Source: Saccharothrix sp. HUAS TT1
GTDB taxonomy: Bacteria > Actinomycetota > Actinomycetes > Mycobacteriales > Pseudonocardiaceae
NCBI RefSeq assembly: GCF_040744945.1
Contig: NZ_CP160453.1
Span: forward strand, 558,001-622,000
Reading direction: 5' to 3'
DNA: 64,000 nucleotides
The position numbers and the translations under genes are program-made. Positions 33,542-51,800 of this stretch are shown here, in pieces (positions within the stretch are counted from its first letter, which is position 1; every line of letters begins with the position of its first letter). The notes beneath the pieces are model-generated. The model worked only from the letters and a program-made list of their open reading frames with translations, was not told where the DNA came from and did not search any database.

Positions 33542-34513
33542 GTGAGCACCGCAAATCCCACCGGCGCGTACGGCGTCGGACTCGCCACCGTCACCCCCAC
33601 CGGCGCTGTGCTGGACACGTGGTTCCCGTCGCCGTCGCTCGGTGACGCGGAGGCCGGCGTGGCGCTGCTGTCGTCCGCGGAGGTGTCGGCGGCGCTCGGC
33701 GAGGCCGCCGCCAAGCAGCTCGGCGCGGACGCCGAGCGCGACGTCGAGGTCATCGGCGTCCGGGTCGGCATCGGGTCGCTGGCCGACGCGCCCACCTCGA
33801 CCTACGACGTGTGGCTGCGGCTGCACCTGCTGTCGTCCCGGCTGGTCCGGCCGCACGGCGCGAACATGGACGGCGTGTTCGGGCTGCTGAACAACGTGGT
33901 GTGGACGAACTTCGGGCCGTGCGCGGTGGACGGGTTCGAGCAGACGCGGCTGCGGTTGCGCTCGCGCGGGCCGGTGTCGGTGCACGGCGTGGACAAGTTC
34001 CCCCGGATGGTGGACTACGTGCTGCCGACGGGCGTGCGGATCGCGGACGCGGACCGCGTGCGGCTGGGCGCGCACCTGGCGTCCGGCACGACCGTGATGC
34101 ACGAGGGCTTCGTGAACTTCAACGCCGGGACGCTGGGCGCGTCGATGGTGGAGGGCCGCATCTCGGCCGGTGTGGTCGTGGGCGACGGCTCCGACGTCGG
34201 CGGCGGGGCGTCCATCATGGGCACGCTGTCCGGTGGCGGGAAGCAGGTCATCTCGATCGGCGAGCGGTGCCTGATCGGGGCGAACGGCGGCGTGGGCATC
34301 TCGCTGGGTGACGACTGCGTGGTCGAGGCGGGCCTGTACGTCACCGCGGGCACCAAGGTCACCGGCGCCGACGGCGCGGTCGTCAAGGCGGGTGAGCTGT
34401 CCGGCATGTCCGGCCTGCTGTTCCTGCGCGACTCCACCACCGGCGCCGTCAAGGTCCTCCCCCGCAAGGGCTCCGGCGTCGCCCTGAACACCGCCCTCCA
34501 CTCCAACGACTAA
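33542..34513 (+). CDS. dapD: Tetrahydrodipicolinate N-succinyltransferase
   Basis: The 323-aa enzyme is the long actinobacterial DapD. After an N-terminal alpha/beta domain comes a left-handed beta-helix of hexapeptide repeats ([39 protein letters not shown]). It adds succinyl from succinyl-CoA to tetrahydrodipicolinate in DAP synthesis. It is divergent from dapE and followed by dapC on the opposite strand, so the three acyl-DAP pathway genes are together. The GTG start appears leaderless. Confidence 0.93.
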
Positions 34514-34518
34514 CCCGC

Positions 34519-34679
34519 GAGAGTCCAACGCTCAACGCACGAGAGTCCAACGTTCAGAGCACGAGAGTCCAACGCTCAGCGCACCTGAGTTCAACATTCG
34601 GCAGACCGAGCGGTCGGTCCGAGCGTTGAACTCAGGGGTCGCGAACGTTGGACTCTCGCGGCTTGAGCGTTGGACTCTC
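34519..34679. repeat. Palindromic array A: 22-bp-spaced GAGAGTCCAACG words
   Basis: Four left words start at 34519, 34541, 34563 and 34585 (GAGAGTCCAACG three times, then CTGAGTTCAACA). Three right words, their inverse, start at 34624, 34646 and 34668. All steps are exactly 22 bp. The centre (34604-34619) is itself a GACCGA/TCGGTC hairpin. The array fills the gap between the convergent stops of dapD and dapC. It can fold into one long interrupted hairpin on either strand. Confidence 0.9.
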
Positions 34680-34682
34680 GGG

Positions 34683-35780
34683 TCAGGGGGTGAGGCGGGT
34701 GGTGGCGGTGGTGATGGCGGAGTCGGTGGCGGTCAGGGCGATGCGGACGTGGCGGTCGCCGGTCGGGCCGTAGAACGTGCCCGGCGCCGCCAGGATGCCG
34801 CGCTCGGCCAGCCAGGCGACGGTGTCCCAGGCGTCCTCGCCCCGGGTCGACCACAGGTACAGGCCCGCCTCGGAGTGGTCGACGGTGAACCCCGCCGCGG
34901 TCAACGCGGGCAGCAGCAGGTCACGCCGCGCCCGGTAGCGCTCGCGCTGCACGGCCACGTGCGCGTCGTCGTCCAGCGCCGCCGTCATCGCCGCCTGCAC
35001 GGGCCGCGGCACGATCATCCCGGCGTGCTTGCGCACCTCCAGCAACGACGCCACCAGCGCCGGGTCGCCGGTCACGAACCCCGCCCGGTACCCGGCCAGG
35101 CTGGACGACTTCGACAGCGAGTGCACCGCCAGCAGCCCCTCCGGCGACCCCCCGCTGACCGACGGCGCCAGCACGGACACCGGCGACGCCGTCCACGCCA
35201 GCGCCAGGTAGCACTCGTCGGACGCGACGACCGCGCCCACCGCGCGAGCGTCGGCCACGGCCTGAGCCAGCCGTGCCGCCGACAGCACCCGACCGGTCGG
35301 GTTGGACGGCGAGTTCAGCCACACCAGCGACGTGCCGGGCGGCGGCGGCTCGCCGTCGGCCAGCCGCACCACCGAGGCGCCGGCCAGCCGCGCGCCCACC
35401 TCGTACGTCGGGTACGACAGCGCCGGGATGGCCACCACGTCGCCCGGTCCGAGGCCGAGCAGCGTCGGCAGCCACGCCACCAGCTCCTTGGACCCGATGG
35501 TCGGCAGCACCGCCGCCGGGTCGAGGCCGGTGACGCCGTGCCGCCGCGCCAGCGCGCCGACGACGGCCTCCCGCAGCGCGGGCGTGCCGTGCGTGGTCGG
35601 GTAGCCGGGCACGTCGGCGACCGAGCCGAGGGCGTCCCGGATCAGCTCGGGGACGGGGTCGACCGGGGTGCCGATGGACAGGTCGACCACGCCGCCGGGG
35701 TGCGTGCGCGCCTTGGCGGCGTGGTCGGCCAGCGAGTCCCAGGGGAAGTCCGGGAGCCGCCGCGTGGTGCGAGAGGTCAC
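34683..35780 (-). CDS. dapC: Succinyldiaminopimelate aminotransferase
   Basis: The 365-aa PLP enzyme (class I/II aminotransferase) has [14 protein letters not shown] at its start, [37 protein letters not shown] (Asp binding pyridine N), [15 protein letters not shown] (Schiff-base Lys), and a C-terminal Arg in RHVRIAL. It transaminates N-succinyl-2-amino-6-ketopimelate. The GTG overlaps the ferredoxin stop by 4 bp, as in M. tuberculosis (fdxC-dapC). Confidence 0.92.
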
Positions 35781-49820: not shown

Positions 49821-49868
49821 TGCGTTCGGGGGCATCGCATCGGGTGGGTGACACCCGAAGGGATGACG

Positions 49869-50834
49869 ATGATCAGGCTTTCCGCCATCACCCCGTCCGG
49901 CCACGTCCAGCTGGGCAACTACCTCGGCGCGATGCGGCGGTGGGCGGCCGAGGGGACCGAAGAGGACGTCTACTTCATCAGCGACCTGCACGCGATGACG
50001 ACGTCGCACAACCCTGCGCGGTTGCGGTCGTTGACGCGGGAGCAGCTGGCGGTGCTCGTCGCCACCGGCGTCGACCCGCGCTCGGTGGCCGTGCAGTCCG
50101 ACCTGGTCCGCGAGCTGGGGGCGTTGACGTGGGTGCTGGAGTGCACCTGCACGTACGGCGAGGCGGCCCGGATGATCCAGTTCAAGGAGAAGTCGGGCGG
50201 TCGGGCGTCGGTCCGGTTGAGCCTGCTCACCTACCCGGTGCTGATGGCGGCCGACATCCTGCTGCAGGGCGCGCAGGAGGTGCCGGTCGGCGACGACCAG
50301 CGGCAGCACGTGGAGCTGGCGCGGGTGCTGGCGCGGCGGTTCAACGGCACGTACGGCGAGGTGTTCGCGGTGCCGGAGGCCGTGGTGCCGCCGACCGCGG
50401 CGCGGGTGCGCGACCTGGCCGACCCGTCGCGGAAGATGGCCAAGTCGGCGGCGGACGCGGCGGGCACGGTGTTCGTGCTCGACCCGCCCGACCTCGTGCG
50501 GCGGAAGGTGCGGCGCGCGGTGACCGACGACCGGGGTGAGGTGCGCTACGCGCCGGACGAGCAGCCCGGCGTGGCGAACCTGCTGGAGATCCTGGCGGCG
50601 TGCACGGGCAAGGCCGCCGAGGAGCTGGCCGGCACCGTGCGCGACTACTCCTCGCTGAAGGAGCTGACCGCCGAGGCGGTCGTCGAGGAGCTGCGCCCGG
50701 TCCGCGAGCGCACCCGGCAGCTGCTGGACGACCCCGCCGAGCTGGACCGCGCCCGCGCCCGCGGCGCCACCCGCTCCCGCGAGCGCTGCACCCACCGCCT
50801 CGACGCCGCCCTCCGCCTCTCCGGCCTGACCTGA
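49869..50834 (+). CDS. trpS: Auxiliary tryptophanyl-tRNA synthetase
   Basis: The 321-aa class Ic synthetase has a HIGH-like SGHVQLGNYLGA, a central GDDQRQHVELAR and the KMSKS-like DPSRKMAKS. It charges tRNA-Trp. Attenuator-controlled auxiliary TrpRS genes in Streptomyces give resistance to indolmycin-type inhibitors; this copy has the same type of leader, so the same role is likely. A housekeeping trpS should exist elsewhere. ATG 49869 is chosen because GAAGG lies 7 nt upstream; ATG 49863 is an alternative. Confidence 0.92.
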   Translation: MIRLSAITPSGHVQLGNYLGAMRRWAAEGTEEDVYFISDLHAMTTSHNPARLRSLTREQLAVLVATGVDPRSVAVQSDLVRELGALTWVLECTCTYGEAARMIQFKEKSGGRASVRLSLLTYPVLMAADILLQGAQEVPVGDDQRQHVELARVLARRFNGTYGEVFAVPEAVVPPTAARVRDLADPSRKMAKSAADAAGTVFVLDPPDLVRRKVRRAVTDDRGEVRYAPDEQPGVANLLEILAACTGKAAEELAGTVRDYSSLKELTAEAVVEELRPVRERTRQLLDDPAELDRARARGATRSRERCTHRLDAALRLSGLT

Positions 50835-50838
50835 ACCC

Positions 50839-50977
50839 GAGAGTCCAACCTCCAAGCCGCGAGAGTCCTACGTCCAGCGCCCCTGAGTTCAACGCTCAGC
50901 CCTAACGCCGTTAGCCGCGAGCGTTGAACTCGGGGTGCGTGAACGTAGGACTCTCGCGTGCTGAACGTTGGACTCTC
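50839..50977. repeat. Palindromic array B: 22-bp-spaced GAGAGTCCAACG words
   Basis: Left words start at 50839, 50861 and 50883; right words at 50922, 50944 and 50966, all 22 bp apart. The innermost pair is CTGAGTTCAACG with CGTTGAACTCGG, as in array A. The middle pair has TCCTACG on the left and CGTAGGA on the right, a matching two-sided change that keeps pairing. The centre (50902-50914) is the palindrome CTAACGCCGTTAG. The array fills the gap between the trpS and nudix stops. Confidence 0.9.
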
Positions 50978-50984
50978 GCGGGGG

Positions 50985-51800
50985 TTAGGTGAGGAGGGGG
51001 TGGAGGGTGGGGAGGAGGACGCGGTCGGCGGGGAGCCAGTCGACGGTGGTCAGGGTGTCGGCGGTCAGCCAGCGCAGGGCGCGGTGCTCGACGGGGGTCG
51101 GGGCGCCGGTGGCGAGGTCGGCGAGGTAGACGCGCAGCAGCAGGTCGGGGCGCAGGGGGATGTCCGGGCCCAGCTGGGCGCCCGGGGTGACGGTGACGGC
51201 CAGCTCCTCGGCGCACTCGCGGACGACGGCGGCGTGGTCCGCTTCGCCCGGTTCCACCCGGCCGCCGGGCAGTTCCCACTTGCCGGCGGCTTCCGGCGGG
51301 TAGGAGCGCTGTTGGGCCAGGAGTCGGCCATCGCGGATGATCGCGGCCCCTACTACTACGCGCGCGTGCAGGAGTTCGACGCTCCGAGCCGAAACGGCGG
51401 CAGCACGGGCTTCCAGCACCTTCAGGGCCAGGCCGCGGCCCACGACGACGTCGGCGAGGCGGCCGAACGGCCCGCCGGGGCTGGTCCACTCCACCGAGTC
51501 GACCACCATCGTGCCGCCGCCGGTGTGCAGCAGGTCCGTGACCAGCGTGAACCGCGGCAGCGGCCCGCCGACCAGCTCCGCCGACACACCGGTGGTGTCG
51601 GCCCGCGTCACGACCAGCCGCCCGGTCACCGGCCCGACGGACCCCGCCAGCGACGCGCCCGCGAACAGCACCGGCCCGACACCGGAGATCCGCACGCCCA
51701 GCCCCCGCACGGCCCGCGCCAGCAGTCGGGCGTCCAGCAACGCGGCGGCGACGGTCCGCAGCGGCGCGTCGACCAGGGTGGTGGTTCTCAGCTCGGGCAC
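50985..51800 (-). CDS. SRPBCC-Nudix fusion hydrolase
   Basis: The 271-aa protein has an N-terminal SRPBCC-like ligand-binding domain (about 1-140, TTTLVDAPLRTVAAALLDARLL). A C-terminal Nudix hydrolase of MutT/CTP-pyrophosphohydrolase type follows, with VVVGAAIIRDGRLLAQQRS and the Nudix box GGRVEPGEADHAAVVRECAEEL. The box has AEELAV where the canonical form has REUxEExGU with Gly, a mild change. The substrate is unknown. It lies 26 bp after the sensor kinase gene and may be in the same operon. Confidence 0.82.
   Translation of the reverse strand: MPELRTTTLVDAPLRTVAAALLDARLLARAVRGLGVRISGVGPVLFAGASLAGSVGPVTGRLVVTRADTTGVSAELVGGPLPRFTLVTDLLHTGGGTMVVDSVEWTSPGGPFGRLADVVVGRGLALKVLEARAAAVSARSVELLHARVVVGAAIIRDGRLLAQQRSYPPEAAGKWELPGGRVEPGEADHAAVVRECAEELAVTVTPGAQLGPDIPLRPDLLLRVYLADLATGAPTPVEHRALRWLTADTLTTVDWLPADRVLLPTLHPLLT

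Follow-up and report, generated by a model that had tools for sequence, protein, structure and literature searches.

Repeats and structured ends at bacterial gene borders

In the excerpts of the literature drawn on here, REPs are described as brief palindromic sequences outside genes that share a consensus, frequently found behind a gene and bearing a GTAG or CGTC tag (PMC12306157, PMC3733652). The REP and BIME elements of enterobacteria and pseudomonads are numerous and dispersed; most lie downstream of genes and where neighbours converge or run in the same direction, and inverted pairs are frequent among them (PMC3733652, PMC12306157). The DNA uptake sequences of the Neisseriaceae come in species dialects and form inverted pairs at terminators (PMC3630211), and Term-seq of Streptomyces clavuligerus has yielded structured 3' ends without a U-tract as well as bidirectional 3' ends (PMC8269248).

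Here we describe an array of 22-bp units between two convergent genes of Saccharothrix, and the family to which it belongs. The subject touches on the question of how convergent genes are kept apart in GC-rich actinobacteria, where U-tract terminators are few. No published description of a 22-bp array family was found among the top-ranked matches in the open-licence literature.

The array between trpS and the nudix gene

The window, the whole stretch of 64,000 nucleotides that was analysed, belongs to the genome called G000 below and contains two arrays of 22-bp units, each between convergent genes (Table 1). The array behind trpS is two-armed and inward-pointing, each arm consisting of two 22-bp units and an inner unit. 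An earlier note on this DNA had already recognized an array with this step; the step is exactly 22 and the bounds have been corrected to those in the table. It had placed the array exactly between the convergent stops of trpS and the nudix gene, which agrees with gaps of 3 and 6 bp. The 'same innermost variant' that it assigned to the array is correct for the left inner word, but the right one, CCGAGTTCAACG, differs from it by one mismatch. The letters that it cited as two separate changes in the middle pair are as it gave them, but together they make up a single base pair, A-T having become T-A.

Table 1. Features of the two array-bearing junctions (positions in the window)
Feature	Position	Strand	Basis or remark
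dapD (THDPS_M, Hexapep_2)	33554..34513	+	domain match; start position provisional
sister array	34518..34680		three + units, inner pair, two - units
aminotransferase class I/II gene	34683..35780	-	domain match; dapC-like by position, name inferred
trpS (tRNA-synt_1b)	49863..50834	+	stop 3 bp ahead of array
two-armed (inward) 22-bp array	50838..50978		unit words; folds on both strands
left outer unit, CCAAC type	50838..50859	+	word CGAGAGTCCAAC at 50838
left middle unit, CCTAC type	50860..50881	+	word CGAGAGTCCTAC at 50860
left inner unit, CTGAGTTCAACGCTCAG	50882..50903	+	inner word CTGAGTTCAACG at 50883
centre, AACGCCGTT	50904..50912		loop type
right inner unit, CCGAGTTCAACG	50913..50934	-	inner word at 50922-50933
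right middle unit, CCTAC type	50935..50956	-	word GTAGGACTCTCG at 50945
right outer unit, CCAAC type	50957..50978	-	word GTTGGACTCTCG at 50967
nudix-domain gene (PF00293, 3.6e-17)	50985..51800	-	convergent; stop 6 bp from array

The two arms match at 51 of 66 positions and are mismatched at 15. In RNA folding, both strands give one long hairpin, with -107.6 kcal/mol (z -12.8) for the top strand and -114.1 kcal/mol (z -14.3) for the bottom strand, and for neither was any of 200 shuffles as good. When five single units of the window were folded alone, only the left inner unit did better than its shuffles. The loop type of the centre is common to one other array of G000 (L024) and, in altered form, to another (L038). 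The sequence CTGAGTTCAACGCTCAG recalls a tRNA T-arm, a likeness that we take to be coincidence. At gathering score, Rfam matched nothing in the window, and around the array (50500-51300) no site resembling a terminator, with a T-tract or U-tract, was found.

A large family in Saccharothrix

From two copies in the window the earlier note had guessed at a genome-wide family, rightly so: CGAGAGTCCAAC has 85 and CGAGAGTCCTAC 94 matches in the 8.7-Mb genome, and the reversed patterns have none. A scan with one-base tolerance, which called for two or more units at a spacing of 22 or 44 bp, detected 60 arrays in 2.06 Mb of sequence from G000, G002 and G014, three species in all; the reversed sequence gave no array and no chained unit. 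G000 contributes 34 arrays in 1.26 Mb, which extrapolates to about 200 in the whole genome. Matches to the word GAGAGTCC are denser in the first half of its contig C1 (0.1-4.3 Mb) than in the second, and the sampled array density was 15 at 0.7-1.1 Mb and 5 at 6.4-6.8 Mb.

The family is large and dispersed, and was observed in Saccharothrix only. A longer two-unit pattern picked out 14 stretches in the genome collection, all from this genus. The array word is present in 13 genomes out of 60, every one of them among the 25 of Saccharothrix, and in none of the 35 genomes outside it; an inner-pair pattern occurs in three of 150 genomes of the taxonomic family, again all Saccharothrix. By eye, 23 dapD loci from beyond Saccharothrix showed no 22-bp array following the gene, though arrays with differing words could escape such inspection.

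The step is the most rigid feature of the arrays. Among spacings between 19 and 25 bp, 238 of 243 neighbouring same-strand units are exactly 22 bp apart, as are all 13 in a stretch of G022 built from another word. The unit consensus, partly fixed by the search pattern itself, is strong over some 16 positions and fades in the spacer, where one position has 0.09 bits. Several words, GAGTCCWAC, GTGTCCTAC, GAGTCGAAC and GAGTTCAAC, are found within one genome, and in some arrays the inner unit is TGAATTC. GTAG occurs only in units of the CCTAC type; those of the CCAAC and TCGAAC types are without it. A slightly wider pattern gives 63 arrays in the same 2.06 Mb, 26 inward, three outward and 34 one-armed, the last being a class defined by the unit pattern in which arms of unrecognized units may be hidden.

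The centre distances of 64 inward arrays fall mainly at 33-35 (45 arrays), with smaller classes at 12, 23 and 43-44, and singles at 67 and 89; values of 14 and 58 are exceptions. By eye, the two entries at 37, those at 45 and 55 and one of those at 14 are probably register errors of the pattern. There is thus a hint of steps of roughly 11 bp, a post hoc impression from a series that includes several such errors. The centres themselves (window 50896-50920, L019, L024, L038, L042) recur as types, CCTAACGCCGTTAGCC-like, ACCGACCGGT-like and CGACGAGCGGCACG-like, at different loci and in different species.

A second palindromic repeat, TCGATTTGACATGG ... CCATGTCAAATCGA, forms 16 inverted pairs in G000 and none in the reversed control. 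Judged from coordinates, about 10 of the 16 lie within about 110 bp of a one-armed 22-bp array, and the repeat is present at the G000 loci L023, L028, L029, L034, L041, L046, L052, L061, L072, L080 and L081.

Position at gene ends and folding

By the gene calls of a purpose-made codon-usage model, in which single junction contexts may be wrong and genes may be missed, 41 of the 60 arrays lie at convergent junctions, 18 at co-directional and one at a divergent junction. The background is 357 convergent among 1914 junctions (binomial 5.7e-17). Counted by sequence length, convergent junctions hold 34,719 of 239,518 intergenic bases (14.5%; binomial 4.6e-21 for the 41 arrays), whereas divergent junctions, with 73,424 bases, hold a single array. 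The arrays are set close to the genes. For the 59 that have a flanking stop codon, the median distance to the nearest one is 7 bp, and 55 are at most 58 bp from it; in some, the TGA stop of the gene is also the first three bases of a unit.

At convergent junctions of 40-330 nt, all 22 two-armed arrays fall below a z of -3 whichever strand is folded, with a median of -13.3. One-armed arrays at such junctions (n = 14) have a median of -3.1, with seven below -3 on both strands, and the 145 usable junctions free of arrays have a median of -2.7, with 48% below -3. Two-armed arrays therefore stand out in folding and one-armed arrays do not; of the marks of a bidirectional terminator, a hairpin that is stable on either strand where genes converge was established for the two-armed form only.

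A directional module of the 3'-UTR, giving a palindrome only where two convergent genes each bring one, was considered and rejected, because outward arrays exist (three of 63, and those at dapD in G007, G019 and G021) and because two-armed arrays are also found, by our own gene calls, at co-directional junctions (five inward, one outward).

The same gene ends in 25 species

Both trpS and dapD were located in all 25 Saccharothrix genomes. An array follows trpS in 14 of them, 13 recognized by pattern and one (G021) by eye with another word, GTGTCATGCGCTC; an array follows dapD in 11, pointing inward in eight and outward in G007, G019 and G021. The words are species dialects, differing from one species to the next. 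In two related species the trpS arrays (L094 in G024, L095 in G006) combine unchanged outer words with a different inner unit, TGAGTTCTTTACTCGCGAGT...; the trpS folds in these two genomes span half the array only, the next gene having been called inside it.

Most of the 14 dapD junctions without an array carry either a short GC-rich hairpin or some other long palindrome. Two of them (L126 in G008, L128 in G023) have a different long palindrome, CCCCGTATGGCCTG ... CAGGCCATACGGGG, with z about -11. At trpS, some array-less junctions have a hairpin and some little structure, the weak cases being G016, where the gap is 5 bp, and G023, G009, G013 and G003, where z is weak.

In a comparison of G002 with G014, nine of 12 testable array loci were occupied in both genomes, whichever of the two was taken as the starting point; sites thus persist as their words are altered. 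The family is in effect a natural experiment, in which repeats stay at the same gene ends while their sequence is rewritten, and the arrays at trpS and dapD, with their differing words, make the question testable in this genus.

Likeness of the arms

The earlier note took the paired change in the middle units to argue that base pairing is selected, or that arms are copied onto each other. Covariation across a larger set, on which it let the argument stand or fall, does not exceed that of shuffles. From 22 arrays chosen for the GAGAGTCC word, the 16 with equal arm distance were aligned as a stem of 66 pairs, leaving out L027, L031, L040, L045, L055 and L067, which have another arm distance or register. 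In this stem 81.6% of positions are paired, against 82.7% when the letters of the 3' side are shuffled among the arrays, 485 of 500 shuffles being as high; pairs altered on both sides number 17, against 18.0 in the shuffles. The true stem does beat slid versions of itself, in which 23-42% is paired, but this is to be expected of every inverted repeat.

Exchanging arms among the 22 members of the GAGTCC class makes little difference. Over 66 positions, own arms agree at 0.758 and swapped arms at 0.744 (876 of 10000 swaps as good), and with four arrays with overlapping inner units removed the values are 0.749 and 0.752; the array at 2520110, with two units per arm, was outside the 66-position tests. 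The inner spacer agrees at 0.530 for own and 0.388 for swapped arms in all arrays, but this excess, too, is gone without the four overlapping-centre arrays (0.438 against 0.395; 1514 of 10000). For unit cores, own arms reach 0.901 and swapped arms 0.888 (493 and 557 of 10000 in two runs), and the whole excess comes from one A/T position; without it the values are 0.901 and 0.897, so that no arm-specific match is left.

That position, in the middle unit, is the only one coupled between the arms. It agrees in 20 of 22 arrays (13 AA, 7 TT, 2 AT; Fisher 2e-4), with one of 10000 swaps as good, and the array behind trpS in the window is one of the seven TT cases. The coupling also links units that do not pair with each other, namely the outer unit of one arm with the middle unit of the opposite arm (5e-4) and the outer with the middle unit of the same arm (0.0066). 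For this reason we read it as array-wide sameness, and the paired change from which the earlier note argued is of this kind.

At a coarser level the arms do resemble each other. Both are of one word class in 27 of 28 arrays of G000 (22 GAGTCC, 4 TCGAAC, 1 GTGTCC; the remaining one mixed), in four of six in G002 and in two of six in G014. When G000 cores are swapped over all classes, own arms are ahead (0.886 against 0.856; 5 of 10000), an excess that vanishes once swaps stay within a class (1887 of 10000). At trpS and dapD, two loci taken irrespective of word, own arms match at 8.75 of 9 (n 24); the value falls to 8.22 (n 20) when an arm is set against the other locus of its own genome, and to 7.86 when it is set against its own locus in a different genome. 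This own-arm excess varies among the ten genomes: G002, G004, G017 and G019 show a large one, G000 a small one and G001, G007, G014 and G020 none, and in G022 it is reversed. The level-by-level order of units, in the 40 heterogeneous arrays of 70, is weakly above shuffled order (789 identities against 778.3, sd 5.6; 771 of 20000).

The compensatory reading thus largely fails. That base pairing is directly selected, the arms being kept complementary by compensation or by arm-to-arm copying, seems to us quite improbable: the common word class, the A/T agreement, the own-arm excess in four genomes and the slight excess of level-by-level order are what it would predict, but the lack of covariation above shuffles already weakens it, the arm-specific match shrinks to one position that is coupled to non-pairing units as well, the spacers are uncoupled, and half of the ten genomes have little or no own-arm difference with another reversed. 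Before matching changes in repeat arms are taken for compensation, they should be put to an arm-swap control.

Copying of whole arrays

Copying does occur, at a different scale from that proposed earlier. Three arrays of G014, located at 8200658, at 8227017 and, at the dapD junction, at 8348482, share 93-95% identity across 167-213 bp; the alignments end where the arrays end, the flanks are unlike, and the three junctions are unrelated. By eye, most other array-bearing species have a different centre at the dapD junction, from which it follows that the G014 array was probably replaced in place by a copy from elsewhere. Arm-to-arm copying, as the earlier note suggested, may also take place, but it is whole arrays that were seen to be copied, and such copying could suffice to explain why arms share a word class. 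The arms would match because they are built of the current words of the genome and because whole arrays are exchanged, rather than through compensation base pair by base pair; arrays may spread to new junctions or replace older ones, the manner of copying being conjectural.

Mobilization by a RAYT-type transposase was also considered and is unsupported. The Y1_Tnp domain (PF01797) is absent from G000 and was found in three of the 14 species with an array at trpS or dapD, and in five of all 25.

Function and origin

Position and fold lead us to favour a REP/BIME-like element, palindromic and dispersed, that would terminate transcription in both directions or stabilize 3' ends; we give this reading a probability of about 0.5. 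The element is intergenic, made of 22-bp units and placed directly behind stop codons in Saccharothrix, and its two-armed form, read from either strand, can yield a hairpin of 60-70 bp right after the stop. The two-armed array would then most likely be a bidirectional terminator without a U-tract, a 3'-end stabilizer, or both, and would keep convergent transcripts apart; RNA polymerase would end at the array and the RNA hairpin would be the active form. The one-armed arrays (34 of 63), the lack of a U-tract and those array-less relatives that have no hairpin tell against termination, and the rigid 22-bp step counts against a role of the hairpin alone, because a hairpin needs no such spacing.

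That step speaks for a reading that we consider possible, if doubtful, in which the units are DNA sites for a sequence-specific protein, or for gyrase, phased at two turns of the helix behind gene ends. Convergent transcription would pile up positive supercoils there, and the hairpin would be a by-product of inverted sites. One-armed arrays, which are as common as two-armed ones and need no hairpin, would be expected, as would species dialects of the word and, with the reservations given above, centre distances in steps of about 11 bp; an excerpt on gyrase in Escherichia coli reports that it prefers BIME-2 (PMC6379681). Several words coexisting in one genome are, however, a wide range for one protein, and descent can also preserve unit spacing. 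Less likely still, in our view, is an end-of-gene code specific to the genus: a rigid 22-bp lattice that would be read by a factor of drifting specificity and would mark and insulate gene 3' ends, its places kept at orthologous junctions for as long as the genus has existed while words are rewritten array by array and whole arrays exchanged. The arrays might also be selfish or neutral repeats, spread by recombination or a mobilizer and surviving where they do no harm, behind stops. Restriction to one genus, quick turnover of words and whole-array copies at new places would suit such repeats, but we regard them as an improbable explanation, given that orthologous loci remain occupied while the sequence turns over and that divergent junctions, with more than twice the bases of convergent ones, are nearly devoid of arrays, a deficit that promoter avoidance could explain in part.

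Comparison with known systems

Compared with a classical intrinsic terminator, the array behind trpS has the hairpin and is without the U-tract. It is closer to the Streptomyces ends, since the Saccharothrix arrays are likewise GC-rich, structured, free of a U-tract and two-directional, in our case as judged from sequence and predicted fold; they differ in having stems of 60-70 bp made of repeated units, whereas the excerpts on Streptomyces do not describe those ends as a repeat family. With REP and BIME elements, as the excerpts present them, the arrays share their number, dispersal, common consensus, extragenic position downstream of genes and frequent inverted pairing (60 in 2.06 Mb). Unlike these, the Saccharothrix units are 22 bp long, phased at 22, often one-armed and, in four of the five tested, non-palindromic alone, and the arrays have no constant GTAG or CGTC end and no Y1 transposase domain accompanying them in G000. 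We know of no link between the arrays and competence. Unlike the uptake sequences of the Neisseriaceae, again as far as the excerpts describe them, the Saccharothrix words stand in tandem 22-bp arrays tied to gene ends; yet in having a short word, species dialects and inverted pairs the two are alike, and for the species words these uptake sequences are the nearest parallel.
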